From Tardiphaga sp. (GTDB lineage Bacteria; Pseudomonadota; Alphaproteobacteria; Rhizobiales; Xanthobacteraceae), in contig JAQGJF010001104.1 in the NCBI GenBank assembly GCA_028290765.1, positions 1-11,824 on the forward strand: DNA of 11,824 bases, read 5' to 3'. Of the stretch, positions 1 through 11,824 are shown piece after piece. The notes beneath the pieces are model-generated. The model did not search any database. It was not told the origin of the DNA and saw nothing but the letters and a program-made list of their open reading frames with translations. Each line of letters opens with the position of its first letter. The stretch's first letter is position 1. The translations under genes and the position numbers were made by a program.

Positions 1-1427
1 GAACAGTTCAACAGCGCGTTGAGGATCGGCCAGTCGGCGATCGCGTCGGAGCCGTCCTTCATGTTCTCGGTCTCGCGATGCGGCAGCGCTGCGGAGCCGG
101 AATCGAGGTGATCGCGGGTGAAGGCGATCGGTGCCGAGATTTTGCCGCTGGCGACGGCCTCGTTGACCAGCAGCGCCAGCCGGCTGCGCTCGCCATAGCC
201 GAGCCAGCCGATGCGGGCTGGCAAGCCGGTGAACTGGACGTGTTCGCGCGCCTTCTCGATCCACGACGCGATCGGATGGTTGGAGGAGAACGTCTCCAGG
301 ATCATGTCATCTATGGTGTAGATATCCTGCGGATTGCCAGACACCGCGATCCAGCGGAACGGCCCGATGCCCTGGCAGAACAGCGGGCGGATATAGAGAT
401 CGACGAAGGAGCGCATCCGGAACGCGTCCGTGACGCCGGCGGTCTTGGCTTCGGCGCGCAGGCTGTTGCCGTATTCGAACACGATGGCACCGCGATCGAG
501 GAAGTCCAGCATGGCGCGGACATGGACGGCGACGGACTTTTGCGCCAGCGCGATCAGCCCTTTCGGATCGTCCTTGCGCATCGCGCGCGCCTGTTCCAGC
601 GACAGTTCGGCCGGTACGTAGCCCTTCAGCGGATCGGGAAAGGTCTGATCGGTGACGATGTCGGGCACGATGCCGCGCTTCGCCAGTTCCGGCAGCACCA
701 CCGCCGAATTGGCGCACAGCGCCAGCGCCAGCGGCCGTCGTGCATCGCGCGCGGCCTGCCACTGCGCGATGGCGTCGTCAAGATTGTCGGTGGTGGCGTC
801 GCAATAGCCGCTGGCGATGCGCCGGTCGATGCGGGCCTGATCGACCTCGATCACCAGCGTCGACGCGCCCGCGAGCTTGCCGGCAAGCGGCTGCGCGCCG
901 CTCATGCCGCCGCAGCCGGAGGTCAGCAGCAGGCGTCCATTGAGCGTGCCGCCAAAATGCTGGCGGGCGATCGCCATGAAAGTTTCGAACGTGCCTTGCA
1001 AAATTCCCTGGCTGCCGATGTATTGCCAGGCGGCGGCGGTCATTCCGGGATAGACAGTGAGACCCATGTCGTCGAGTTTGCGACGATTTTCCTCCCCGCT
1101 CCATTCGCCGACGATATTGCCGTTGGCCATGATGACCAGGGGTGTCGTGCTCTGGCCCGGAAAGACGCCGATCGGCTTGCCCGACTGCATCACAAAGGTC
1201 TGGTCCTCGCGCAGCGTCGTCAGCGTCGCGACGATGCGGTCAAAACTTTTCCAGTCGCGCGCCGCCCGGGCGATCGACATGTAAATCACCAGATTGTCGG
1301 GATCCTCGGCGTTTTCGAGATTGTTTTCCAACAGGCGCAGGATCGCCTCCTGGCGCCAGCCCTTGCAGCGCAGGGTGGTGCCGCGTTCGGCCTTCACTTC
1401 CTTGCCGCGGCGCACGGGAATGTTCAT
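1..1427 (-). CDS. Urocanase-family hydratase with remodelled active site (putative S-methyl-thiourocanate/thiourocanate hydratase), C-terminus cut by window edge
   Basis: Reading down from an ATG at 1427 gives 475 residues open to the left edge; urocanases are about 555 long, so some 80 C-terminal residues are missing. Family landmarks are clear: SGKPIGVF, YIGSQGILQGTFETF, GGMSGAQPLAG (about 173-183), LFCQGIGPFRW (Cys351), RDHLDSGS and NALLN. Urocanases use tightly bound NAD+ as electrophile to add water to urocanate. This one departs from that family where it matters: YGG is YMS at 49-51, GGMGGAQ is GGMSGAQ (Ser176), QTSAHDP is QTFPDP (Phe263), and the active-site Cys of FQGLPARIC (about Cys410 in Pseudomonas) is Gly407 in FTGLPARIGW. 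I infer hydration of a bulkier urocanate analogue, such as S-methyl-thiourocanate, rather than histidine catabolism. A GGAGGAG ribosome site precedes the start, one base after the GST stop, so it is translationally linked. Family certain; substrate inferred. Confidence 0.85.
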   Translation of the reverse strand, partial: MNIPVRRGKEVKAERGTTLRCKGWRQEAILRLLENNLENAEDPDNLVIYMSIARAARDWKSFDRIVATLTTLREDQTFVMQSGKPIGVFPGQSTTPLVIMANGNIVGEWSGEENRRKLDDMGLTVYPGMTAAAWQYIGSQGILQGTFETFMAIARQHFGGTLNGRLLLTSGCGGMSGAQPLAGKLAGASTLVIEVDQARIDRRIASGYCDATTDNLDDAIAQWQAARDARRPLALALCANSAVVLPELAKRGIVPDIVTDQTFPDPLKGYVPAELSLEQARAMRKDDPKGLIALAQKSVAVHVRAMLDFLDRGAIVFEYGNSLRAEAKTAGVTDAFRMRSFVDLYIRPLFCQGIGPFRWIAVSGNPQDIYTIDDMILETFSSNHPIASWIEKAREHVQFTGLPARIGWLGYGERSRLALLVNEAVASGKISAPIAFTRDHLDSGSAALPHRETENMKDGSDAIADWPILNALLNC

Positions 1428-1428
1428 C

Positions 1429-2034
1429 TCAAGTCTCCTCCACCAGCGGGACCCAGCCGGGCTGAGCCTTGACCCGGGCGAGCCAGGCGTTGATCGCTGG
1501 AAACCGTGCCATGTCGTAGCCACCCTGCGTCGCCATCGACACGTAGCCGAACAGGCCGATATCGGCGATGCCATAGCGGTCGTCGACCAGCCAGTCGTGG
1601 GCGGCGAGCCACGCATCGGCCTTGGCCAATGCCGGATAGGCGCTTTCCTGAAAGTCGGAGATGCGGCTCGCCATCTGATCGGCCATGCCGCGCAGGTGCC
1701 AGATTCGCGGCAGCGCCAGCGCCCGGAGCAGGTCGGCCTGTTCGAAGGTCAGCCAGCTCATCACCTCGGCGCGCAGAAAGCGATCGTCCGGCAGAAACCG
1801 CGTGCCTTCGGCGAGATACAGCATGATCGCCGCGGATTCCACCAGCGTGCGGCCATCCTCGAATTCGAGCACGGGCACGCGGGCGAAGCGGCTTTTTGCG
1901 CGGAACGCTGGGTCAGCGGTATCACCCTTGGCCAGATCCAACGTGACGCGTTCGAACGGGATGCCGAGCTGGGTCAGCAGGATACGGACCTTCCAGGCGT
2001 TGCCGGACAACCGGGTGTCGTAGAGACGCAACAT
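1429..2034 (-). CDS. Glutathione S-transferase-like protein
   Basis: 201 residues, the usual length for a soluble bacterial GST. The N-terminal thioredoxin-like domain (about 1-75) starts MLRLYDTRLSGNAWKVR, with Ser10 as the likely glutathione-activating residue. It carries the cis-proline motif RVPVLEF (Pro54) and the Glu66-Ser67 pair that binds the gamma-glutamyl group. The rest (about 85-201) is the all-helical domain, with the GIADIGLFGY stretch where the N-capping Asp of the family normally sits. It lies 14 bp after the DUF917 gene and one base before the urocanase-like gene, so it is clearly in the operon. Role in the pathway is not known. Possibilities are glutathione-dependent handling of a sulfur or methylthio group released by the neighbours, or isomerisation of an unsaturated acid. 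GST class and substrate cannot be told from sequence. Confidence 0.88.
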   Translation of the reverse strand: MLRLYDTRLSGNAWKVRILLTQLGIPFERVTLDLAKGDTADPAFRAKSRFARVPVLEFEDGRTLVESAAIMLYLAEGTRFLPDDRFLRAEVMSWLTFEQADLLRALALPRIWHLRGMADQMASRISDFQESAYPALAKADAWLAAHDWLVDDRYGIADIGLFGYVSMATQGGYDMARFPAINAWLARVKAQPGWVPLVEET

Positions 2035-2048
2035 CTTCGAAGCCTTTC

Positions 2049-3122
2049 TTAGAGATAAGAGCGCATGTCGACGCCCATGGCTTTCTCGACCTCGGGGAAG
2101 ACGGCCGGGTCAAGCGCCCCCTTGCCGACCGGGAATTTCGAGCGGTGCGCGATGATGACGGCAACCCTGGAGCCGGGCTTCGATTCCGAAATCGACACGC
2201 ATTCGCCGGTGACCGGGTCCAGCGTGCCTATCATATCCGGGAAGGTGGCGACGCGCTGGCCACCGAAATCCGCGGTCATGAATTCATTGTAGACGCCGAG
2301 CACGGCTTCGCCGTCCTTGCCGCGCACGGTCATCTGGCCGAGATCGAAGCCGCCGCCATATTCCACATTGTTCTGCGTGACCTCGCCGTCCACCAGCAAT
2401 TGCCCGCCGAGGAATTCCACCGTGGCGCGGACGCGGTCGGCGCCCTTGGCCGCCAGCATGGCGCGGCCGAGGGCGAGCTGGAAACTGATGGCGCCGGGCG
2501 CGCCGTTCTCCTTGATGAAGCCGGCGGTCAAGGGACCGCGCGCGGCATAAATCAGCCCGCCATTGATCACTGCCGCCTGTCGCATCACGTTGGAGGTGCG
2601 GACAATGTCGCCCTCCGCAACGACCGCGAATTCATTGTCCTCGGCCTTGCTGCCGCTGCAGCCGATCTGGGTGATCGACAGATCGAGCCGCGAGGCCAGC
2701 CCCATGCCGCCCATCTTCACGGTGGGATGGCCGCGGCCGTTCGAGGCGGCATCGATGTAATCGAGCCCGAGTGCTGACGCGACCAGCCAGGCGTTGAAGC
2801 CGGGCACATGACCGCAGATCACGCCGACCGGCGGCTTATCCAATTTCTCGATCAGCCGCCGCGCCGCATTGATCGAATCGCGCGGCTTGATTTGCCAGTT
2901 GGCGAAGCCAGGCGCGCCAACCGCGGTCGCGGTGATGACCGTGGCCTCCGGGTCGAGCTCATCGAGCGCGACCAGGTGCACGCCGCCATAGTCCAGCGCC
3001 ATCTGTCCGAGCCCGCGGTTCTTGGCAACCGCGTTCCGGCCGCTGCCGCCCGCCGACAGGAACAATCCCCCCACCAGCCCCGCTTCCACATCTTCCGCCG
3101 TCAGCATCCGCGTCATCGTCAT
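2049..3122 (-). CDS. DUF917-family protein (putative S-methyl-thiohydantoin desulfurase type)
   Basis: 357 residues, matching the usual 350-380 of the family. The N-terminal domain opens with a glycine-rich segment (18-28, GGLFLSAGGSG) in place of the common GTGGGG-type motif. The middle holds GHVPGFNAW and a DAASNGRGHPTVKM segment. The C-terminal domain has the pattern GGGFDLGQMTV, YNEFMTA, TFPDMIGTLDPVTGE (293-307) and GSRVAVI. This layout is what I recognise as Pfam PF06032 (DUF917), which to my memory was renamed after S-methyl-thiohydantoin desulfurase. Such an enzyme would convert S-methyl-thiohydantoin propionate to hydantoin propionate plus methanethiol, exactly the step after a thiourocanate-type hydratase, which is encoded two genes downstream. 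DUF917 proteins are also found beside hydantoinases, so another hydantoin-like substrate is possible. No signal peptide; cytoplasmic. Start: ATG at 3122 after AAGG; a second ATG at 3116 is equally usable. It begins 21 bp after livF. Confidence 0.8.
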   Translation of the reverse strand: MTMTRMLTAEDVEAGLVGGLFLSAGGSGRNAVAKNRGLGQMALDYGGVHLVALDELDPEATVITATAVGAPGFANWQIKPRDSINAARRLIEKLDKPPVGVICGHVPGFNAWLVASALGLDYIDAASNGRGHPTVKMGGMGLASRLDLSITQIGCSGSKAEDNEFAVVAEGDIVRTSNVMRQAAVINGGLIYAARGPLTAGFIKENGAPGAISFQLALGRAMLAAKGADRVRATVEFLGGQLLVDGEVTQNNVEYGGGFDLGQMTVRGKDGEAVLGVYNEFMTADFGGQRVATFPDMIGTLDPVTGECVSISESKPGSRVAVIIAHRSKFPVGKGALDPAVFPEVEKAMGVDMRSYL

Positions 3123-3143
3123 TCAGCCTTCGTTTTACCGTGA

Positions 3144-3857
3144 TCAGACCGGTTCGTTCATGCCGAGGAAGGTCGCAAACATCGAGCCCGCCGCCTTGGC
3201 CTCGGCCGCCGTGCCTTGATAGACCTGCACGCCGGACGACATCACACAGACCTTGTCGGCGACATCGAGGGCGCGCGCGGTGTTCTGTTCGACCAGCACG
3301 ATGGTCAGGCCTTCCCGCTTCAATTGAAGCAAGGCGTCGAGGCACAGATCGACCATCTTCGGCATCAGGCCGAGCGAGAGTTCGTCCACCAATAGCAGCC
3401 GCGGCTCGGCCATCAGCGCCCGCCCGATCGCCAGCATCTGCTGCTCGCCGCCGGACAGCGACCCGGCAAGTTGGGTGCGGCGCTCATGCAGCCGCGGAAA
3501 GATACTGAAGACGCGATCGCGCTTGGCGGCGTCGCGGCCGATCGGGCGGGCATAACCGCCGACGGTCAGGTTTTCGTCGACCGTCAGATCGGAAAACAAC
3601 TGCCGGCCCTCGGGCACGATCGAGATGCCGAGTCCGACGCGATCGATGGCGCGGCGCGCCGTGATGTCTTCGCCGTCAAGCCAAATGCGGCCGCCGTGAA
3701 TATCGACGTGGCCCATGATCGCCATGATGGTGGAAGTCTTGCCGGCGCCGTTCGGTCCCAGCAGGGCGAACACCGAGCCTGCAGGCACGTCGAAGCTGAC
3801 GTCGTGGACCGCCTCGACGGAGCCATAGCCGCAATTGAGGTTTTCAAGTTTCAGCAT
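3144..3857 (-). CDS. livF: ABC transporter ATP-binding subunit, LivF type
   Basis: 237 residues, the normal LivF length. Walker A is GPNGAGKT (34-41), the signature is LSGGEQQ, and Walker B is LLLVDELSLGL, with Leu where most relatives have Pro (DEPSLGL); the catalytic Glu is kept. VEQN before the switch His region and the LivF hallmark ISIVPEGRQLF are present. It pairs with LivG to power uptake through LivH/LivM. I chose ATG 3857 (MLKLENLNCGYG), where homology begins, over ATG 3887, which adds ten unconserved residues (MLMSAAEWWR). With this start the gene overlaps the end of livG by 14 bp, arguing for translational coupling. The substrate cannot be read from the ATPase; the catabolic genes that follow suggest an imidazole- or hydantoin-type amino-acid derivative. 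Confidence 0.93.
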   Translation of the reverse strand: MLKLENLNCGYGSVEAVHDVSFDVPAGSVFALLGPNGAGKTSTIMAIMGHVDIHGGRIWLDGEDITARRAIDRVGLGISIVPEGRQLFSDLTVDENLTVGGYARPIGRDAAKRDRVFSIFPRLHERRTQLAGSLSGGEQQMLAIGRALMAEPRLLLVDELSLGLMPKMVDLCLDALLQLKREGLTIVLVEQNTARALDVADKVCVMSSGVQVYQGTAAEAKAAGSMFATFLGMNEPV

Positions 3858-4611
3858 GCGCCACCATTCCGCCGCCGACATAAGCATCGTGCACCACCGG
3901 ATCGGCCATCACCGCGCGCGGCTCGCCGTCGCCGATGACGAGGCCATTGTTTAACACGATCAGCCGCCGGCAGATCCGCATCACTTCTTCCAGATTGTGC
4001 TCGACCAGGATCACGGTGATGCCGTGCTTGTGCACATCGGAAATGGTCTCGACCTGTCTGGAGGCCTCGGTATGGTTGAGGCCGGCCAGCGGCTCGTCGA
4101 GCAGGATGATTTTCGGATCGACCGCCAGCGCGCGCGCCACTTCGAGCCGCTTCATCTGGCCAAGCGGCAGCGAGCCGGCCAGCTTGCGTTCGGTGCCGGC
4201 CAGTCCGACCAGACCGAGGATGTGGGCGGCCCGCTCGCTCTCGCGGCGCCGGTCGATATGCAGCATGGCGCCGAACGGGTTGGCGGTGCGGCGAATGCCG
4301 GCGCCGAGCACGACATTGTCGAGCACGGTCATTTCGCGGAACGGCCGCACGATCTGGTGGGTCAGCGCGAGACCGCGGCGGACCCGCGCCGCGGTCGCAT
4401 CGTTGGTCACATCGGCGCCGCCGAGCATGACCTTGCCGCGGTCGGGCCGCAGCAGCCCGGCCACGATCTTGATCAGCGTGGTCTTGCCGGCGCCGTTCGG
4501 TCCGATCAGGCCGACGAAATCGCCCTCTTCCACGGCAAAGGACACGCCGGCGACGGCCTGCACGCCGCCGAAGCGGATCGCGACGTCGTCGAGCTGCAGC
4601 GCCACGCTCAT
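3844..4611 (-). CDS. livG: ABC transporter ATP-binding subunit, LivG type
   Basis: 255 residues, typical of LivG. Walker A is GPNGAGKT (37-44), the Q-loop region reads ALTHQIVRPFREMTVLDNV, the signature is LPLGQMKRLEVARAL, a divergent form of LSGGQ common in this subfamily, and Walker B is IILLDEPLAGLN followed by LVEHNLEEV with the switch His. It is the partner of LivF on the cytoplasmic face of the LivHM channel. The ATG at 4611 overlaps the livM stop as ATGA and has an upstream AGAGG ribosome site. A much longer open frame runs upstream to 5373 but only reads through livM in the wrong frame, so it is not used. Confidence 0.94.
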   Translation of the reverse strand: MSVALQLDDVAIRFGGVQAVAGVSFAVEEGDFVGLIGPNGAGKTTLIKIVAGLLRPDRGKVMLGGADVTNDATAARVRRGLALTHQIVRPFREMTVLDNVVLGAGIRRTANPFGAMLHIDRRRESERAAHILGLVGLAGTERKLAGSLPLGQMKRLEVARALAVDPKIILLDEPLAGLNHTEASRQVETISDVHKHGITVILVEHNLEEVMRICRRLIVLNNGLVIGDGEPRAVMADPVVHDAYVGGGMVAHAET

Positions 4612-5456
4612 GTTCCTCTCACCCGGAGTACGAGCCCACGCACCATGGCCGCGAGCCCGCCGGGCGCCAGCCGGATCACCAGCACCAGCAGGCCGCCGAA
4701 CACCAGCAGGCGGTAGTCGTTGACGAAACGAATGGCTTCCGGCAGCAGCGTCAACCCGATCGCGGCCACCACGACGCCCCAGGTCGAGCCGATGCCGCCG
4801 ATCACCACCATCGCCATCAGCATCACTGAAAAGATGAAGTCGAACGCGTCGGCTGTGATGAACTGCGTGAAGAACGTGTAGAGCCCGCCGGCGAGGCCGG
4901 CCAGCGCGGTTCCAATGCCGAACGCCGCCAGCTTGTAGGCCCCGGCATTGATGCCAAGCGTGGCGGCGGCGCCCTCGTCCTCGCCGACCGCGCGAAACGC
5001 AAAGCCCATCCACGACCGGCTGATGTAGAAGCTGAGCGCAATGGTGGCGCAGGCAAACAGCAGGATCATGATCATGTTGCCGGAGGCGCCGAGCCCGGTG
5101 GCGGGAATGCCGCTGATCCCCATCTCGCCGCCGAGCCACGACTGTTTGCGGACGAAGCCGATGAACAGGAAGTTGACCCCGATGGTCGTAACCGCCAGAA
5201 AGTCCGAGCGCACCCGCAGCGAGGCGAAGCCGACGACGATGCCGAGCAGGCTGCCGGTAACCAGCGCCGCCAGGATCGCCAACGGCACGCTGGCGGTGGC
5301 GACCATCGCCAATGCAGCCGCATAAGCGCCGGCACCGAAGAACGCGCCATGGCCGAGGCTGACCTGGCCGCAAAAGCCGCTGATCATGTTCAGGCTCACC
5401 GCCAGGATGACGTTGATGCCGACGATCGAGATGATGCTGATCTCGTAGGCGGTCAT
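4608..5456 (-). CDS. livM: Branched-chain amino-acid-type ABC permease, LivM type
   Basis: 282 residues, very hydrophobic, with about eight predicted membrane segments. The N-terminal motif NMISGFCGQVSLGHGAFFGAGAY (about 23-45) is the LivM hallmark (GQ-SLGHGAF-GAGAY). The cytoplasmic coupling loop, which contacts an ATPase, is around residues 150-172 (FRAVGEDEGAAATLGI). The C-terminal half has IGGIGSTWGVVVAA and ends with a short basic tail (LVLRVRGT). It forms the channel with LivH. It is shorter than enteric LivM (over 400 residues), as is usual for rhizobial paralogues without the N-terminal extension. Its ATG overlaps the livH stop as ATGA and its own stop overlaps the livG start in the same way, so the three are translationally coupled. 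Confidence 0.94.
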   Translation of the reverse strand: MTAYEISIISIVGINVILAVSLNMISGFCGQVSLGHGAFFGAGAYAAALAMVATASVPLAILAALVTGSLLGIVVGFASLRVRSDFLAVTTIGVNFLFIGFVRKQSWLGGEMGISGIPATGLGASGNMIMILLFACATIALSFYISRSWMGFAFRAVGEDEGAAATLGINAGAYKLAAFGIGTALAGLAGGLYTFFTQFITADAFDFIFSVMLMAMVVIGGIGSTWGVVVAAIGLTLLPEAIRFVNDYRLLVFGGLLVLVIRLAPGGLAAMVRGLVLRVRGT

Positions 5457-6322
5457 GCGGTGCGCGCCCCGGTAAAACCCTGCGGCCGGATCATCAGCAA
5501 AACGATGAGCGCGAGGAAGGCGATGGCGTCGCGGTCGAGCCAGGCGCCGATGAAGATGGTGCCGTAAGCTTCGACCAGGCCCAGCACCAGGCTCGCCACC
5601 AGTGTGCCGCGCACGCTGCCGAGCCCGCCGAGCACGATGATGGCGAGCGCCTTGTAGCTGACGACGAAGCCGATCGCCGGATCGACCAGATTGTTCATCA
5701 GCGCAACCAGCCCGCCGGCCACCGCGGCCAGCGCCGATCCGATGGCGAAGTTGAGGTAGCGCACTTTAATGGGATCGATGCCGAAGCTCGCGGCGATCTG
5801 CGGCTTCGACACCGTGGCGCGCCAGCCGACCCCGATGCGGGTCCGGGTCGTGAACAGATGCAGCCCCGCGAACACGATCGCAGCCGCGACCACGATGGCG
5901 ATCTGCACCGCGCTGATCGTGATACCGGCGAAATTGAAGGTCGTGAACGAGAACGCATTGCGGCGAAAGGTGACGCCCTGCTCGCCGAACATGATGCGGA
6001 AGCCATCCTGCATCAGCACCAAAAGCCCGACGGACGCGATCATCGGCACGTCAGGGCGATATTTCAGCAATGGCTCATACAGCAGCCGATAGATCGCCAT
6101 CCCGAACAGCGGCGTCGCGATGAGCGAGGCCAGGAAACCGAGCGCGATCGAGCCGGTGGCATTGGCCACCAGCACCGTGACATAGGCGCCAAGCGCAAAC
6201 ACCGCGGCATGCGCCACGTGCAGGATGCGCAGCAGGCCATACACCAGGGTCAGGCCTACCGACATCATGGCGTACATGCAGCCGAAGCTGATGCCGGTGA
6301 CGGCCAGATCGATGTAGTACAC
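5453..6322 (-). CDS. livH: Branched-chain amino-acid-type ABC permease, LivH type
   Basis: 289 residues, hydrophobic throughout, with the LivH opening GISFGCMYAMMSVGLTLVYG and the following LLRILHVAHAAVFALGAY (the usual motif is I-N-AHG/A-). The coupling loop lies at about 166-185 (GWRATVSKPQIAASFGID), and the C-terminal motif VLGGLGSVRGTLVASLVLG is typical. It is the second half of the membrane channel. The start is GTG at 6322, preceded by AAGGA at a suitable distance; no in-frame ATG fits better. It follows the only large gap in the operon (6323-6534), so translation here starts independently of the binding-protein gene. Confidence 0.93.
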   Translation of the reverse strand: MYYIDLAVTGISFGCMYAMMSVGLTLVYGLLRILHVAHAAVFALGAYVTVLVANATGSIALGFLASLIATPLFGMAIYRLLYEPLLKYRPDVPMIASVGLLVLMQDGFRIMFGEQGVTFRRNAFSFTTFNFAGITISAVQIAIVVAAAIVFAGLHLFTTRTRIGVGWRATVSKPQIAASFGIDPIKVRYLNFAIGSALAAVAGGLVALMNNLVDPAIGFVVSYKALAIIVLGGLGSVRGTLVASLVLGLVEAYGTIFIGAWLDRDAIAFLALIVLLMIRPQGFTGARTA

Positions 6323-6366
6323 TCAGTGATCCTTGTTGTTTGTGAACGAGCGGTTGTCTCTTACTT

Positions 6367-6502
6367 ATCCCTCCCCCTTGTGGGGAGGGTGGCCGGCCGA
6401 CAGGCCGGTCGGGTGGGGGTAGACACGAAGGGACGGCATGTGTGGCACCCCCACCCCGGCCTCCGCTGCGCTCGGCCGACCCTCCCCACAAGGGGGAGGG
6501 AT
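6367..6502. repeat. Long palindromic intergenic repeat between the binding-protein and permease genes
   Basis: The outer arms 6367-6390 and 6479-6502 are a perfect 24-bp inverted repeat. Each arm is itself partly palindromic (CTCCCC-TTGTGGGGAG type). Inner arms 6411-6420 and 6447-6456 also pair (GGGTGGGGGT with ACCCCCACCC), and the right side carries the sequence CTCCGCTGCGCTCGGCCGAC. The whole can fold into one long, very stable hairpin on either strand. I remember near-identical elements scattered between genes of Bradyrhizobium and relatives, so I call it a dispersed palindromic repeat. There is no T-run after it in the operon direction, so it is not a standard intrinsic terminator. It sits where enteric operons such as malE-malF carry REP elements that protect upstream mRNA, which could keep binding protein in excess over the membrane subunits. 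Confidence 0.85.
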
Positions 6503-6534
6503 CGCACTTCGGCATTACCCAATAAAGTTCGCCA

Positions 6535-7719
6535 TCACTTCTCCGGCGGCGCGAACGCGGTCAGGTCGGTGATCTCGCCGGCCGATTTGAACTTGCCGTC
6601 CTTGATGACGTTGACGGCGATCGGCATGAGCATCTCATGAAGGCTGTTGAAGCCGTTCAGGGTGCCCTCCAGCATCGGGAAGTCCTTGGTGGCGGCGATC
6701 GCGTCGCGGACCTTGGCCGGATCGGTGCTGCCCGCGCGCTTGATGCCGTCGGCCATCAACCTGACCGCCGAATAGGTGATCGCGGCGACGCCTTCCGGCG
6801 AATAGCCGGCGCGGGTCTTGAAGCCGGCGAAGAACTTCTGCAGCGACTCGTCCTTGCGGTCGCGATCGAAGCTGTCGATGATATAGGTCCCTTCGGCCGC
6901 CGGTCCCGCGATCTCGATGAACTTTTCGGAATCGAAGGCCTGCGAGCCGATGATCGGCACCGTGATGCCGGCGGCGCGCAGCTGCGCAACCAGGGGACCG
7001 CCGGTGAAGAAGTAGCCGGTGGCGTAGACCGCATCGGGATTGTCGCGCTTCACGCTGGCGACGATCGAACCGAACTGGCGATCCTTCAGCGAGTAGCTGT
7101 ATTTGTTGAGGACCTCGATGCCGTATTTCGGCGCGGCCTCGAGGAAACCGTCCATGGTGGCCTGGCCGTAGTCATTGTCCATGGTGATGGTGGAGATCTT
7201 CTTCAGGCCAAGGTTCTTGCCGATGTAGAGCGCGGTCGCGGTACCCTGCGGCGGACCGAGATGCACCATTCTGAACATGTAATCGCCCGACTTGGTGATA
7301 TCCGGGTGCACACCGTAGGCAGCGATCATCACCACGCCGGCCTTCTGGAACACCGGTGCCGCGGCGCGGCCCGAGGCCGAATAGCTGCCATTGACCACCA
7401 GCTTCACGCCATCTTCGCCGATCAGCTTGTTGGCGGTGAAGATCGCCTGGTCCGACTTGGCCTGGTCGTCATAGGTGACGAGTTCCAGCTTCTGGCCGAG
7501 CACGCCGCCGGCGGCGTTGATGTCCTCCACCGCCATCTGGCCGGCGATCTGCGCGGATTTGCCGTCGGTGGCGGCGGGGCCCGTCAGGGGAACCTGGAAG
7601 CCGATCTTGATGTCGGCACGCGCCGGCATCGCGGTGGCGGCGCCGAGCACGAGGATGCTGGCAAAACTCATCAGAAACTTGGCGCTGAACGCCGACGCCT
7701 TGAAGCTGGATTTCAACAT
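6535..7719 (-). CDS. Periplasmic substrate-binding protein of Liv-type ABC transporter (livK-like)
   Basis: 394 residues, normal for the type I amino-acid receptor family (Peripla_BP_6). The signal peptide covers 1-35: Lys-rich start, hydrophobic stretch around 15-31, and cleavage after MPARA before DIKIG. The mature protein begins IKIGFQVPLTGPAA, with the binding-lobe stretches INAAGGVLGQKLELVTYDDQ, VNGSYSASGRAAAPVFQKAG and TMDNDYGQ. It binds substrate in the periplasm and delivers it to LivHM. The ligand is not readable by eye. I chose ATG 7719, which has GGAG six bases upstream, over ATG 7749, which has no good ribosome site and would add ten residues before the signal. It follows the UbiD gene by 45 bp and is separated from livH by the palindromic repeat. 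Confidence 0.93.
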   Translation of the reverse strand: MLKSSFKASAFSAKFLMSFASILVLGAATAMPARADIKIGFQVPLTGPAATDGKSAQIAGQMAVEDINAAGGVLGQKLELVTYDDQAKSDQAIFTANKLIGEDGVKLVVNGSYSASGRAAAPVFQKAGVVMIAAYGVHPDITKSGDYMFRMVHLGPPQGTATALYIGKNLGLKKISTITMDNDYGQATMDGFLEAAPKYGIEVLNKYSYSLKDRQFGSIVASVKRDNPDAVYATGYFFTGGPLVAQLRAAGITVPIIGSQAFDSEKFIEIAGPAAEGTYIIDSFDRDRKDESLQKFFAGFKTRAGYSPEGVAAITYSAVRLMADGIKRAGSTDPAKVRDAIAATKDFPMLEGTLNGFNSLHEMLMPIAVNVIKDGKFKSAGEITDLTAFAPPEK

Positions 7720-7764
7720 GGCTTTCTCCGTTGGAAGCAATCGTTTCATTTTTGGTCGCCGTCC

Positions 7765-9150
7765 CTAGACAAGCTGATTTTCGCGAAGGATTTTGCGTGC
7801 GCGCGCCACCGCCGCTGCCGGCGGTCGCGCCAGTTCCCAGTCCGGCCGGTCGCCCGGATGACGCGTTGCATCGATGCCGAGCTTGGTGATGGTACCGCCC
7901 TGCTCGATCGGCTCGGATCGATCCGCACGCACCGCCGGAATGATGACAAAATCCCGGTCCGGCTTCACCCGTGTTGCGCTGGCCCATTCGACCTGCTGGG
8001 TGTTCCAGGGATCGATGTCGTCGTCGACCACGATCACCTGCTTGATCAGATTGACCGCCGCCCACACCGCGAACATCGCCTTGCGCGCTTCGCCCGGCCG
8101 CGGCGCCCGCAACGACACCACCGCGTGCAAACGGCCGGCGCCGCCCAGACCGACGGCGACTTCGGCAACCGACGGCACCGCGCCACGGATGGCGCGCAGC
8201 AATCCGGCGGCAATCGCGACACCACCGAGCAGGCAATGCTCGGGATGATATCCCGGCAACACCACCTGAAACATCGCGTCACGACGTCGCGTCAAAGCCG
8301 AGAAACTCGCGACGATGCCGGCGCCGTAGTCTTCATACATGCCGTGGAACTCGCTCACCGGTCCTTCGGTAAAAGGTTCGCCGGCGTCGAGCGTTCCTTC
8401 CAGCACGCACTCGCAATGCGCCGGCACCAGCAAATCCGACTGCGTGCAGCGCGTCACCTCGAGCGGCTCGCCCAGCAGCGCGCCGGCGATCGGGAGTTCA
8501 TCGTCGCCGAGGCCGAGGTAGAGGCATGCCGCCACCAGCACTGCCGGGTGATTGCCGATGCACACCGCGATATCGAGCTTCTCGCCGCGCGCATGGGCCG
8601 CCCGCGCCAGCACCGCGAGGTGGTGATTGGGCGCGATGCCGACGAAAGCCCGGTTGGCGCCGAGCGGCATCAAGCGGGCGATTGACAGATTGGTGTGGCC
8701 GCTGACGCGATCCTTGGCGACGATCGCGCCGGCCGTAATATACGGTCCGGCTTCCTTTTCGAAGAAGCGCGGAATCGGCAATTCGTCAGCCAGCGAGGGC
8801 GCGGCGATGATTGCCTGCTGGCAGGGGGCCGACGATACCAGGCGATGCGGCAGCGGATTCTCGATCGCGGCAATCAGCGAGGCCTGCAATGTATCGAGAG
8901 GACTGCTCAATCCCATGGCAAAGCGAGGCAGCGAATTGAGCAGATTGCCCACGATCGGCATCGCGTGAATACCGCTACGCGTCTCGACCTGGGAGAAGCG
9001 CAACGCCGGCCCGTCATCGATCTCGCCGAGGCAGCCGGCGATCTCATAATCCAGGCTTACCGGCTGCGAGATGCTGACGAGGTCGCCTGAAGCTTCGAGG
9101 CCGGACAGGAACGCCCGCATCGACTGGGAATGCGTCGCCTCGCGGTCCAT
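7765..9150 (-). CDS. UbiD-family prenylated-FMN decarboxylase
   Basis: About 461 residues, usual for UbiD/Fdc enzymes, which reversibly decarboxylate unsaturated or (hetero)aromatic acids with prenyl-FMN and a divalent metal. The opening MRAFLSGLEASGDLVSI is the family's N-terminus. Cofactor and catalytic residues align with the fungal ferulate decarboxylase pattern: Asn154 and Arg159 with the same spacing, His177, Glu231 in GEPLEVTRC, and Glu262 and Glu267 in EGPVSE, giving the full Glu-Arg-Glu network. It should therefore be active. UbiX, which makes the cofactor, is not in the window. As first gene of the operon, facing the LysR regulator, it is probably the main regulated target. Substrate unknown; acrylate-like or heteroaromatic acids are plausible beside a urocanase homologue. 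Start is uncertain: in-frame ATGs at 9207, 9192, 9150 and 9120 all lack a strong ribosome site; 9150 or 9120 fits homology best. Confidence 0.9.
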   Translation of the reverse strand: MDREATHSQSMRAFLSGLEASGDLVSISQPVSLDYEIAGCLGEIDDGPALRFSQVETRSGIHAMPIVGNLLNSLPRFAMGLSSPLDTLQASLIAAIENPLPHRLVSSAPCQQAIIAAPSLADELPIPRFFEKEAGPYITAGAIVAKDRVSGHTNLSIARLMPLGANRAFVGIAPNHHLAVLARAAHARGEKLDIAVCIGNHPAVLVAACLYLGLGDDELPIAGALLGEPLEVTRCTQSDLLVPAHCECVLEGTLDAGEPFTEGPVSEFHGMYEDYGAGIVASFSALTRRRDAMFQVVLPGYHPEHCLLGGVAIAAGLLRAIRGAVPSVAEVAVGLGGAGRLHAVVSLRAPRPGEARKAMFAVWAAVNLIKQVIVVDDDIDPWNTQQVEWASATRVKPDRDFVIIPAVRADRSEPIEQGGTITKLGIDATRHPGDRPDWELARPPAAAVARARKILRENQLV

Positions 9151-9367
9151 GGCGTTCTTCGCCTGCACGTCAATCCACCCCACAGCACCCATGAACGGCG
9201 TCAGCATCGAATTCGTCGTCAGATCGCCGCTGATCCGCTTACGATCATATCGGCCATCGCGCCCGGGTCCATCGGCCTATCCCGCGAACCAGGGCATAGG
9301 TAAAAACGAAGGACCGGATGACGCCGCCCCGATCGGAGGCTATGCTGCGCCAAACCGGCGAGAAACG
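9151..9367. promoter_or_regulatory. Divergent promoter/operator region between the UbiD operon and the LysR-type regulator
   Basis: This 217-bp stretch separates the two divergent start codons and should hold both promoters, as is usual for LysR-regulated units. Its left part could instead be coding if the UbiD protein starts at 9207. Visible structure: a direct repeat ATCGGCC at 9249-9255 and 9271-9277, 22 bp apart (two helical turns), and an imperfect palindrome at 9276-9300 with arms CCTAT and ATAGG and further CCC/GGG pairing inside. These are candidate operator elements; no convincing -35/-10 pair is recognised by eye. Confidence 0.45.
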
Positions 9368-11218
9368 ATGGTCGAACTCCGCACCCTGGCCTACTTCATC
9401 ACCGCCTGCCGATCCGGCAGCTTTGCCCAGGCCGCCGGCGATCTCGATATCGCGATTTCGACGCTCAGCACCACCATCAAGACGCTGGGCGAGGATCTCG
9501 GCCTGACTTTGTTTCGGCGCATCAACAATAATCTCTATCCGACCGACGCGGCGCGCAGCCTGATGCGCGCCGCGGAGCCGCTGCTGATGGCGGAGCAGTT
9601 TGCCCGGCGTTTCGTCGCCGCACCGCCCAAGACCAGGCTCAAGCAGCTGACCATCGACATCAGGCTGAGTTTTACGATCGGCGGCATCAGCAAGGCGTTG
9701 CGCCGCGCCATCGACACTACGGGCGCCGAACGCGCGGATATCTTTGTCGACCCGGCGTGGACCGACGACAAGGATCTTCCCCACATCGCGGCCCTGGCGG
9801 AAGATTGGACCTCGCCCGAGCGCAGCTATCTAGCCATCGGCCTCGGCGACACCAGCCAGCGCAAGTCCAAACACGCCACCACCTTGCTCTCCGATCCGTG
9901 GGTCTTTGCCTGCCGGCTGCCGGCCGGTACGCAAAACCCGCCTGATGCCGCCGACCTGATCGCAGGTCGCATCGTCGTGCCGCTACTGTCGCCGCCGCTG
10001 ACGGAACAGGCCGACCGCTATTTCAGCCAGCACAAAATCAGTGGGGTGCGCTTTCTCAACGACCACCCGGGCGACCTGCCGCGCCTGATCGACGACTATC
10101 CCGACGCCGCATTGTTCGTGCCGCGGAGCTTGATCTCGCCGCGGCTTGGCCTGTCCAATATCGCGGTGGTGGCCCCGAATAAGCCGCTGGCGATGAACAT
10201 CGTCGCGCGCGCGGCGGAGCCCAACGCCGTGACGAATTTATTCATACGCCATCTGAAGGGAGCGCTCGGAATTGGGGATCGTTCACCGGTCGAACGCCCG
10301 GTCATCACCTTGCGGCAGATTCAATATTTCAACATGACCTGTCGGCTCCGGCGCATATCCGCCGCGGCGCGCGGTTCGCGCATCAGCCAGCCGGCGCTCA
10401 GCGAACAATTGCACAAGCTCGAAGCGTCGCTCGGCGGCGCACTGTTCGAACGGCACGGCGACGGCGTCATCCCGACCACCAGGGGCGAACGCCTGGCCAC
10501 CATCGCCACGCTGATCGAGCAGGGCTTCCGCCGTCTCTCCAGCAGCGACGCCGGTGCGGCACCACCGCAGAGCCGGCGCATTGCGGTCGGAATTCTTCCA
10601 TCGGTCAACCAGCACGGCTTCCTCGTCAATCGCATTACCGAAGCCATCGTCGACGTTCAGGCGCGCCATCCCGCGTTGAAACTGGTGATCCAGGAAGCGC
10701 CGAACAGCACGCTGCAGGACTGGGTGATGCGTGGCCTCGTGGGTGTCGCGATCGTCGAAACCGTACTGCCGCATATGCCACGGCTGCCGCTCGGATCTTC
10801 GGAAGGCCTCGCCGCGATCGTGCATGCCAAACATCGCCTGCTGCCGCCCGGCCCGGTGAGTCTCGCGGACCTGATGCTCTTGAAGCTGGCGCTGCCGACC
10901 AATCGCTTCGGGCTGCGCCAGTTGCTCGAGAGCGCGGCGGAGGAACGTGGCCTGAAAATCCAGCCCTATCTGGAGATCGATTCGCTGCCGATGGCGGTCG
11001 GCGTCCTGGCGCGGCTGCCGGTCTGCACCGTGCTGCCGCCGTCCGCGGTCGCCCCGGAAATCGCCTCCGGCGATCTGGTCGCGCACCCGATCGTCGATCC
11101 GGTGATATCGCGGCGGCTGTTCGTGATCTATTCCGGCGAGCGGACGTTGAGCGAGCCGGAACGTGGGCTGGTCAATTCGTTGCGGCGGAAATTATCGGAG
11201 CATGGCAGCGCGGAATAA
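9368..11218 (+). CDS. Tandem (double) LysR-type transcriptional regulator
   Basis: 616 residues, twice the usual ~300. The first unit starts at residue 1 with a LysR winged helix (HTH about 18-41, SFAQAAGDLDIAISTLSTTI, then GLTLFRR), followed by an effector-domain-sized stretch to about 300. A second LysR winged helix begins at about 312 (ITLRQIQYFNMTCRL), with HTH about 328-350 (RISQPALSEQLHKLE) and GGALFERHGDGVIPTTRGERL. A second effector-binding domain runs from about 370 to 610. The join is in frame with no stop, so this is a true fusion or internal duplication. The second HTH is closer to the family norm (SQPALS); the first (AISTLS) has drifted. Start ATG 9368 begins directly at the HTH; the frame is open to 9071 but that extension runs into the divergent gene and looks noncoding. 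Likely an activator of the divergent operon, responding to its substrate or an intermediate. Convergent with the amidase gene, 20 bp away. Confidence 0.9.
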   Translation: MVELRTLAYFITACRSGSFAQAAGDLDIAISTLSTTIKTLGEDLGLTLFRRINNNLYPTDAARSLMRAAEPLLMAEQFARRFVAAPPKTRLKQLTIDIRLSFTIGGISKALRRAIDTTGAERADIFVDPAWTDDKDLPHIAALAEDWTSPERSYLAIGLGDTSQRKSKHATTLLSDPWVFACRLPAGTQNPPDAADLIAGRIVVPLLSPPLTEQADRYFSQHKISGVRFLNDHPGDLPRLIDDYPDAALFVPRSLISPRLGLSNIAVVAPNKPLAMNIVARAAEPNAVTNLFIRHLKGALGIGDRSPVERPVITLRQIQYFNMTCRLRRISAAARGSRISQPALSEQLHKLEASLGGALFERHGDGVIPTTRGERLATIATLIEQGFRRLSSSDAGAAPPQSRRIAVGILPSVNQHGFLVNRITEAIVDVQARHPALKLVIQEAPNSTLQDWVMRGLVGVAIVETVLPHMPRLPLGSSEGLAAIVHAKHRLLPPGPVSLADLMLLKLALPTNRFGLRQLLESAAEERGLKIQPYLEIDSLPMAVGVLARLPVCTVLPPSAVAPEIASGDLVAHPIVDPVISRRLFVIYSGERTLSEPERGLVNSLRRKLSEHGSAE

Positions 11219-11238
11219 GGCGACCATGACGGCGAACC

Positions 11239-11824
11239 CTACCCCTTCCGCGCCAGCGACCCATCGATCGCCTTGACCGCCTGATAGATCACCGCCGCAC
11301 CGGCGGCGATGGCTTCGCGGTCGGCCCATTCTTCCGGCGTGTGGCTCTTGCCGGCGCGGCACGGCACGAACACCATGGCGGACGGACAGATCCGGCTCAT
11401 GAACGCCGCGTCGTGACCGGCGCCGCTCGGCAGATCGGCTTCGCTCAGGCCGAGATCGCGCGCGCCGTCGCGCAAGGCGGATCGCAGATTCGGATCGCAT
11501 GCGGCCGGCGCGCCGTCGGACAGGGTTTCGAAGGTTATCCGCGTGACGCGCGCGGCGGCGGCGTGCGCCAGGCTTTCGCGGTCGATCGCCTCGACGAAGC
11601 GTTTCGTCAGCGCCGGGTTGGTGGTTCGCGCATCGACGATCAGTCGCGACCGTCCCGGCACGATATTCGAGGCCGAAGGCTCGACCGTCAGGATGCCGAC
11701 GGTGGCGACGAAATAATCCGGTCCCTCGGCGGCAAGACCCTCGGCCACCCGGCGCACCGACGAAACCGTCGCCGCCGCCGCCACCAGCGCGTCGTGACGC
11801 AAATTCAGCGGCGTGGTGCCGGCA
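11239..11824 (-). CDS. M20-family N-carbamoyl-L-amino-acid amidase / allantoate amidohydrolase-like, N-terminus beyond window
   Basis: About 195 C-terminal residues of a protein normally 400-420 long; the frame is open to the right edge, so the true start and most metal ligands are outside. Present: AGTTPLNLRHDALVAAAA (substrate-binding and dimer region), VGILTVEPSASNIVPG, the lid-domain stretch LIVDARTTNP, SGAGHDAAFMS, and MVFVPCRAGKSHTPEEWA, whose His (codon at 11341-11343) is the last metal-ligand position of the family. These mark the carbamoylase/allantoate branch of the M20 metallopeptidase-like hydrolases, which split N-carbamoyl amino acids to amino acid, CO2 and ammonia. Beside a urocanase-like hydratase and a DUF917 protein, N-carbamoyl-glutamate is the natural guess. 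Allantoate or another ureido acid cannot be excluded. It lies on the same strand as the operon but beyond the regulator, so it has its own promoter further right. Confidence 0.88.
   Translation of the reverse strand, partial: AGTTPLNLRHDALVAAAATVSSVRRVAEGLAAEGPDYFVATVGILTVEPSASNIVPGRSRLIVDARTTNPALTKRFVEAIDRESLAHAAAARVTRITFETLSDGAPAACDPNLRSALRDGARDLGLSEADLPSGAGHDAAFMSRICPSAMVFVPCRAGKSHTPEEWADREAIAAGAAVIYQAVKAIDGSLARKG

Follow-up and report, generated by a model that had tools for sequence, protein, structure and literature searches.

Comparison with described ergothioneine pathways

Both ergothioneine and its S-methyl form occur widely, and bacteria are known to degrade ergothioneine by a route that begins with the release of trimethylamine; the route through an S-methyl thiourocanate hydratase and an S-methyl thiohydantoin desulfurase is reportedly the work of the Seebeck group. 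A stretch of 11,824 bases of Tardiphaga sp. (assembly GCA_028290765.1, contig JAQGJF010001104.1; hereafter the window) was compared with these systems. It holds a minus-strand run of genes together with one oppositely oriented regulator, and we propose, with a probability of roughly 0.78, that it represents a Bradyrhizobium/Xanthobacteraceae type of operon that uses S-methyl-2-thiourocanate as a source of nitrogen and carbon. An earlier note on this DNA had listed a urocanase paralogue, a DUF917 protein, an N-carbamoyl-amino-acid amidase, a Liv-type importer, a UbiD decarboxylase and a glutathione S-transferase (GST), and every gene that it named is present.

With the S-methyl route the window shares both signature enzymes (models NF058531 and NF058532) and the amidohydrolase ErtE, with the hydantoinase ErtD present in relatives; it adds a UbiD and a fused double LysR regulator, and no ergothionase-type lyase was found in eight relatives. 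The ergothioneine utilization clusters (loci L057–L062 and L065–L074) have the same ErtD/ErtE trunk, and their hydratase and desulfurase are paralogous to those of the window; they differ in having the non-methyl enzymes and a lyase that, where readable, lacks the methylidene-imidazolone (MIO) motif, and in having neither a GST nor a UbiD of the clade described below. The trunk from hydratase through desulfurase, ErtD and ErtE to glutamate is the known S-methyl route minus its lyase. What is new here is the lyase-free S-methyl version and the UbiD clade tied to ErtD; the trunk itself was already known.

Trunk enzymes and their relatives

The desulfurase scores 553.2 bits with the NCBIfam S-methyl model NF058532 (cut-off 450) and 281 bits with the model for the non-methyl thiohydantoin desulfurase (cut-off 440). 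The hydratase, whose gene is incomplete, reaches 851.5 bits with NF058531 over 467 of 535 positions (full-length cut-off 880), the best of three models, with thiourocanate hydratase at 652 and HutU at 624; two full-length S-methyl hydratases from outside the window's own subgroup (L027 and L028) score 952 and 946 with NF058531. The half gene of ErtE gives 217 bits with NF058540 on the C-terminal 186 of 418 positions, the best of 21 models (full-length cut-off 520), and the full-length ErtE of L022 gives 599.5. The predicted assignments of desulfurase, hydratase and ErtE are not due to chance. Where the earlier note had envisaged catabolism of compounds resembling ergothioneine or S-methyl-ergothioneine, the model scores uphold an S-methyl-thiourocanate-type trunk; plain ergothioneine as the substrate is disfavoured by the lower scores of both non-methyl models.

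A genome scan with the desulfurase identified six loci in close relatives, three in Bradyrhizobium and one each in a Xanthobacteraceae metagenome-assembled genome (MAG), a Rhodopseudomonas and an unclassified proteobacterial MAG. The gene order of the window recurs in these six, one of which (L006) starts inside UbiD; a homologue search with UbiD likewise found close relatives. Among 195 genomes of one genus, six have a desulfurase over cut-off: three that were already known, two more of the UbiD type (G058 and G154), and G122, which lacks this UbiD (its best UbiD is 34% identical). The hydantoinase that the earlier note thought might be next door is there in relatives: ErtD stands directly before ErtE, past the window edge, in all seven UbiD-type S-methyl relatives with DNA at that place. 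Six of these ErtDs score 730 to 744 bits (cut-off 600); the seventh (L023) is split over two fetched pieces and is recognized by a BLAST match only (92%). In Rhodopseudomonas B29 (G006) there is a further cluster, L022, whose hydratase (1017 bits, cut-off 930) and desulfurase (604 bits, cut-off 440) are of the non-methyl kind; it also carries ErtD, ErtE, the double regulator and a UbiD.

Clusters were counted after exclusion of the window, L028, L033, L042, L044, L045, L056, L091 and L092, which were incomplete, without hydratase, duplicates, halves of another locus or ErtD-like only; hydratase clusters, 47 before exclusions, became 45 with the loss of the window and L028. The loci counted are not independent, and the identity thresholds for locus annotation were set by us. 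All 11 S-methyl hydratase clusters counted carry a GST, as against none of the 34 non-methyl ones. Because GST is also found in the UbiD-free S-methyl clusters L027, L029 (Agrobacterium) and L030 (Lichenihabitans), it tracks S-methyl chemistry and not UbiD. A plasmid of Paracoccus seriniphilus (L028, 13924–15576) encodes an S-methyl thiourocanate hydratase with no desulfurase or GST nearby, which would break this rule; it is among the loci left out of the count. Two UbiD-free S-methyl clusters contain a BisC/TorA-like molybdopterin S/N-oxide reductase (L029, 18665–20995; L027, 2982–5327), whose target might be an S-oxide of the substrate.

Proposed pathway

In the proposed pathway the Liv-type importer would take up a carboxylate, to which, as S-methyl thiourocanate, the hydratase would add water, giving S-methyl-thiohydantoin propionate; the desulfurase would then free methanethiol and leave hydantoin-5-propionate, ErtD, encoded outside the window, would open the hydantoin, and ErtE would strip the carbamoyl group to yield L-glutamate. 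The GST may assist the S-methyl branch in a glutathione-dependent manner, perhaps acting on methanethiol or on an isomer of the substrate. Since the operon is lyase-free and has a Liv-type importer, import of S-methyl thiourocanate is the simplest reading. The entry step differs between clusters, and the lyase-free S-methyl operon suggests that intermediates left by others sustain some soil bacteria.

A UbiD clade linked to ErtD

The best solved relative of the window UbiD is 6h6v (268 bits), which we take to be the 2,5-furandicarboxylate decarboxylase HmfF. The motifs NxSxxR, VPAxxExVLEG and EGxxxE are all present, with retention of the catalytic Arg and two Glu and of the metal-site Asn and Glu, the roles of these residues being presumed from Fdc1; the Glu of the VPA motif is Asp in two clade members (L064 and L075). 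The window UbiD thus shares family and catalytic residues with 6h6v and AnInD (7p9q), and differs from them in its genomic company, a hydantoin module, and in the signature EGxVSE of its clade, where 6h6v has EGPFGE, 7p9q EGPFAE and E. coli UbiD EGPYGD.

A tree was made of 36 UbiDs, 24 from these loci (the window and 23 others) and 12 outgroup sequences of our own choice (five from plasmids and seven from genomes in hand). All 24 form one clade with support of 100/99, in a tree with long branches between the clade and three outgroup rows and with L022 at half length. The signature EGxVSE is found in 23 of 23 readable members (L022 ends before the site) and EGPFGE in 12 of 12 outgroup UbiDs. 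Hydratase-bearing loci occupy two separate places inside the clade.

A sample of 397 Hyphomicrobiales genomes was scanned for both genes (Ensifer UbiD query, E ≤ 1e-90; ErtD, E ≤ 1e-140). At least 10 genomes have a UbiD of the clade and at least 52 have ErtD, both counts being lower bounds with few candidates per genome scored (at most 4 in those shown). Each of the 10 UbiD genomes also belongs to the 52 with ErtD (hypergeometric 7e-10, not corrected for relatedness), with gaps of 0.6 to 7.9 kb between the two genes; the ErtDs of two genomes (G650 and G803) fall slightly below the curated cut-off. UbiD as a chance neighbour is rejected on this ground, as it adjoins ErtD in 10 of 10 genomes where the clade was detected. 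The earlier suggestion that GST and UbiD mark a variant can be sharpened accordingly: GST follows the S-methyl branch, and UbiD follows the ErtD module.

Cluster types and the role of UbiD

The scan yielded 59 ErtD places, again a lower bound, and the survey covers all 37 over cut-off (including that of G003) and 2 of the 22 below it; three class-level matches that are ErtD-like only (L046–L048) were kept out of locus annotation. Four cluster types can be recognized. Type A has a lyase, ErtD, ErtE and the non-methyl desulfurase and hydratase. Type B, with 14 loci, has UbiD without hydratase or desulfurase, accompanied by a lyase in 12, UbiX in 13 (that of L064 just 37% identical), ErtD in 12, ErtE in 11 and the double LysR regulator in seven, as judged by matches of at least 1200 bases to that of the window; the double helix-turn-helix pattern was checked in two of the seven, L052 and L055, and is present in both. 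One type B locus, L095, is half of a locus completed by L042, and the joined locus has lyase, ErtD, ErtE and double LysR. Type C, to which the window belongs with 10 other loci, combines UbiD with hydratase and desulfurase; UbiX is nearby in 2 of the 10. In type D (L031 and L077) an acyl-CoA dehydrogenase and a CoA transferase accompany the non-methyl trunk. These two loci (L031 at 5517–7907) also have TRAP genes, and the whole set stands in the lyase's stead, as if feeding thio-imidazolepropionate.

A lyase is nearby in 2 of the 10 UbiD-bearing hydratase clusters, both with the MIO motif Ala-Ser-Gly (ASG), versus 27 of the 35 without UbiD (Fisher p = 0.0017, the clusters not being independent); among the eight UbiD-less hydratase clusters that also lack a lyase, at least two (L063 and L080) lie on short contigs. 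This tendency of UbiD and lyase toward mutual exclusion is what would be expected if UbiD stood in the main line, decarboxylating a precursor to S-methyl thiourocanate in place of the lyase entry step, and in Thalassospira UbiD adjoins a TRAP importer, with no lyase in the 25 kb shown. UbiD is, however, not simply a lyase substitute, because 12 of the 14 hydratase-free UbiD loci have a lyase, and to our knowledge there is no natural carboxylated thiourocanate; we consider such a main-line role unlikely.

The lyase gene overlaps that of UbiD, or lies no more than 13 bp from it, in three loci (L064, L075 and L093), which suggests that the two enzymes act in consecutive steps; in the A. vitis-type loci other genes stand between them. 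The close arrangement of the three loci resembles that of BagA/BagN, presumably a pathway with an ammonia-lyase and UbiD pair, and differs in that the pair is here joined to a hydantoinase and a carbamoylase, and in that the window operon is without the lyase. The 12 type B lyases include five with ASG, two with ACG and five with neither; by their motifs, a free amino acid would be the expected substrate for ASG, and a betaine where there is neither ASG nor ACG. Nearby UbiX supports the predicted use of prenylated flavin mononucleotide by UbiD, and the candidate reactions considered for it are cis-trans isomerization, ring decarboxylation, vinyl formation and reverse carboxylation. Within the UbiD/lyase/ErtD cluster of L093, positions 5713–6222 match the C-terminal domain of cucumopine synthase (PF18631, 3.9e-25).

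Because the clade keeps ErtD/ErtE and the lyase even without the thio-specific enzymes, the most likely role of UbiD is in the use of a second compound, which would enter at ErtD. UbiD and the lyase, which occur together in most sister clusters and not in this operon, may act on a related histidine-like amino acid or betaine to yield a compound that the ErtD/ErtE trunk accepts. We tentatively suggest, at somewhat less than even odds, that the EGxVSE clade, a lyase of the histidine ammonia-lyase (HAL)/ergothionase family and UbiX, often with the double LysR, constitute an undescribed route into this trunk that is free of urocanase and desulfurase, and that the window operon is a natural fusion of the UbiD and regulator of that route with the S-methyl-thiourocanate route, so that two histidine-derived compounds would converge. 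From the ErtD-linked clade one may expect a decarboxylase for a new class of substrates, and lyase, UbiD, UbiX, ErtD and ErtE provide a gene set with which to search for it. No paper joining UbiD to ergothioneine or hydantoin catabolism was among the matches listed in open-access PubMed Central, and PMC9516567, which concerns biosynthesis, is not relevant to this route.

Search for a lyase

For the lyases of L032, an ergothioneine cluster, and L075, a hydratase-free UbiD cluster, no solved structure matches better than the PDB chain named ergothionase (6s7j/6s7q), which places ergothionase in the HAL family PF00221. Of 25 lyase-bearing non-methyl clusters, 23 (all except L059 and L062) gave a readable MIO-forming site; Ala-Ser-Gly is present in none of these, and the site is mostly GCADIG or GAADIG. 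Eight genomes of UbiD-type S-methyl relatives (G001–G006, G058 and G154) were searched with PF00221. Five gave no match and the other three (G003, G004 and G154) have only copies with ASG, so that a MIO-less PF00221 lyase is present in 0 of 8; G122 likewise has one copy, with ASG. In eight control genomes whose clusters include a lyase, the identical search recovered it every time. The ergothionase-type lyase that the earlier note thought might be next door was thus not borne out in these relatives; of the two enzymes whose absence from neighbourhood and relatives it held would tell against its proposal, the lyase was not found and the hydantoinase was.

These searches bear on whether the operon degrades S-methyl-ergothioneine itself, with a trimethylamine lyase encoded elsewhere in the genome. 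Agrobacterium plasmid pAt15955 offers a precedent, in which the same S-methyl genes are followed by a MIO-less lyase of the HAL family. That lyase, however, matches solved HALs (273 bits) better than it does ergothionase (169 bits), and with no MIO-less PF00221 lyase in the eight relatives or in G122 we regard this explanation as improbable, and a little more so than a main-line UbiD. The lyase of the Lichenihabitans S-methyl cluster (L030, 18790–20322), unlike that of Agrobacterium, is over the HutH cut-off and keeps the MIO motif, which suggests a free-amine substrate.

Several points weigh against the proposal that S-methyl thiourocanate is taken up and used as such. The sole argument for its direct import is the missing lyase; two of the eight searched genomes are MAGs, with completeness figures given for none of the eight, and an unrelated lyase, or a HutH-type copy of relaxed specificity (as in G003, G004 and G154), could form S-methyl thiourocanate inside the cell. 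The hydratase and ErtE are both incomplete in the window, and the known S-methyl route has no place for a UbiD step. Finally, a locus of Rhizobium tropici (L054, outside the 397-genome sample) has a clade UbiD together with UbiX, lyase and double LysR, and its fetched 25 kb contain neither ErtD nor ErtE.

An ordinary hut locus with a urocanase paralogue acting on urocanate, which the presence of hutU, hutI and hutF in the 21-kb locus L002 and of HutU-like genes in L001, L006, L023 and L025 might suggest, is rejected as very improbable, since the window hydratase prefers the S-methyl model to HutU, the neighbouring HutU of L002 shows the reverse (960 with HutU versus 721 with the S-methyl model), and hut requires neither a desulfurase nor a hydantoinase. 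The three hut genes of L002 (15902–20290) are all over cut-off and lie near the operon. Because hut genes adjoin the operon while four genomes (G001, G002, G006 and G058) show no PF00221 lyase, urocanate may be used without HutH.

Genes of the window

The genes are listed in Table 1. From UbiD to the hydratase, each gene shares 4 to 44 bp with the next or is separated from it by 14 to 21 bp, except that the binding protein and LivH are 212 bp apart; the oppositely oriented regulator stands between ErtE and UbiD.

Table 1. Predicted genes of the 11,824-base window. Coordinates include stop codons; start codons are our choice.
Gene product	Position	Strand	Basis
S-methyl thiourocanate hydratase (urocanase paralogue), C-terminal end lost at left edge	1..1454	-	NF058531 best; nearest solved chains 8q9v/8q9u
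Glutathione S-transferase-like protein	1429..2034	-	PF13417, PF00043; nearest solved 3m3m, 3m8n
S-methyl thiohydantoin desulfurase (DUF917 / S-Me-THD)	2049..3122	-	NF058532 over cut-off
LivF-type ABC ATPase	3144..3887	-	PF00005; NF008626 best, under cut-off
LivG-type ABC ATPase	3844..4611	-	PF00005; NF008449 best, under cut-off
LivM-type permease	4608..5456	-	PF02653
LivH-type permease	5453..6322	-	PF02653
Liv-type substrate-binding protein of importer	6535..7749	-	PF13458 1.8e-63
UbiD-family decarboxylase, ErtD-linked clade	7765..9207	-	PF01977 and TIGR00148 over cut-off
Fused double LysR-type regulator, divergent from UbiD	9368..11218	+	Two HTH_1 stretches, one LysR_substrate match
N-carbamyl-L-glutamate amidohydrolase ErtE, N-terminal half lost at right edge	11239..11824	-	NF058540 best of 21 models

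A megablast search of the window against plasmids gave nothing beyond short matches. The 212-bp gap contains a perfect 24-nt inverted repeat with arms at 6367–6390 and 6479–6502, 88 nt apart. Its 21-nt core is present in just 1 of 107 fetched loci (L072), and it may therefore be a small inserted repeat.

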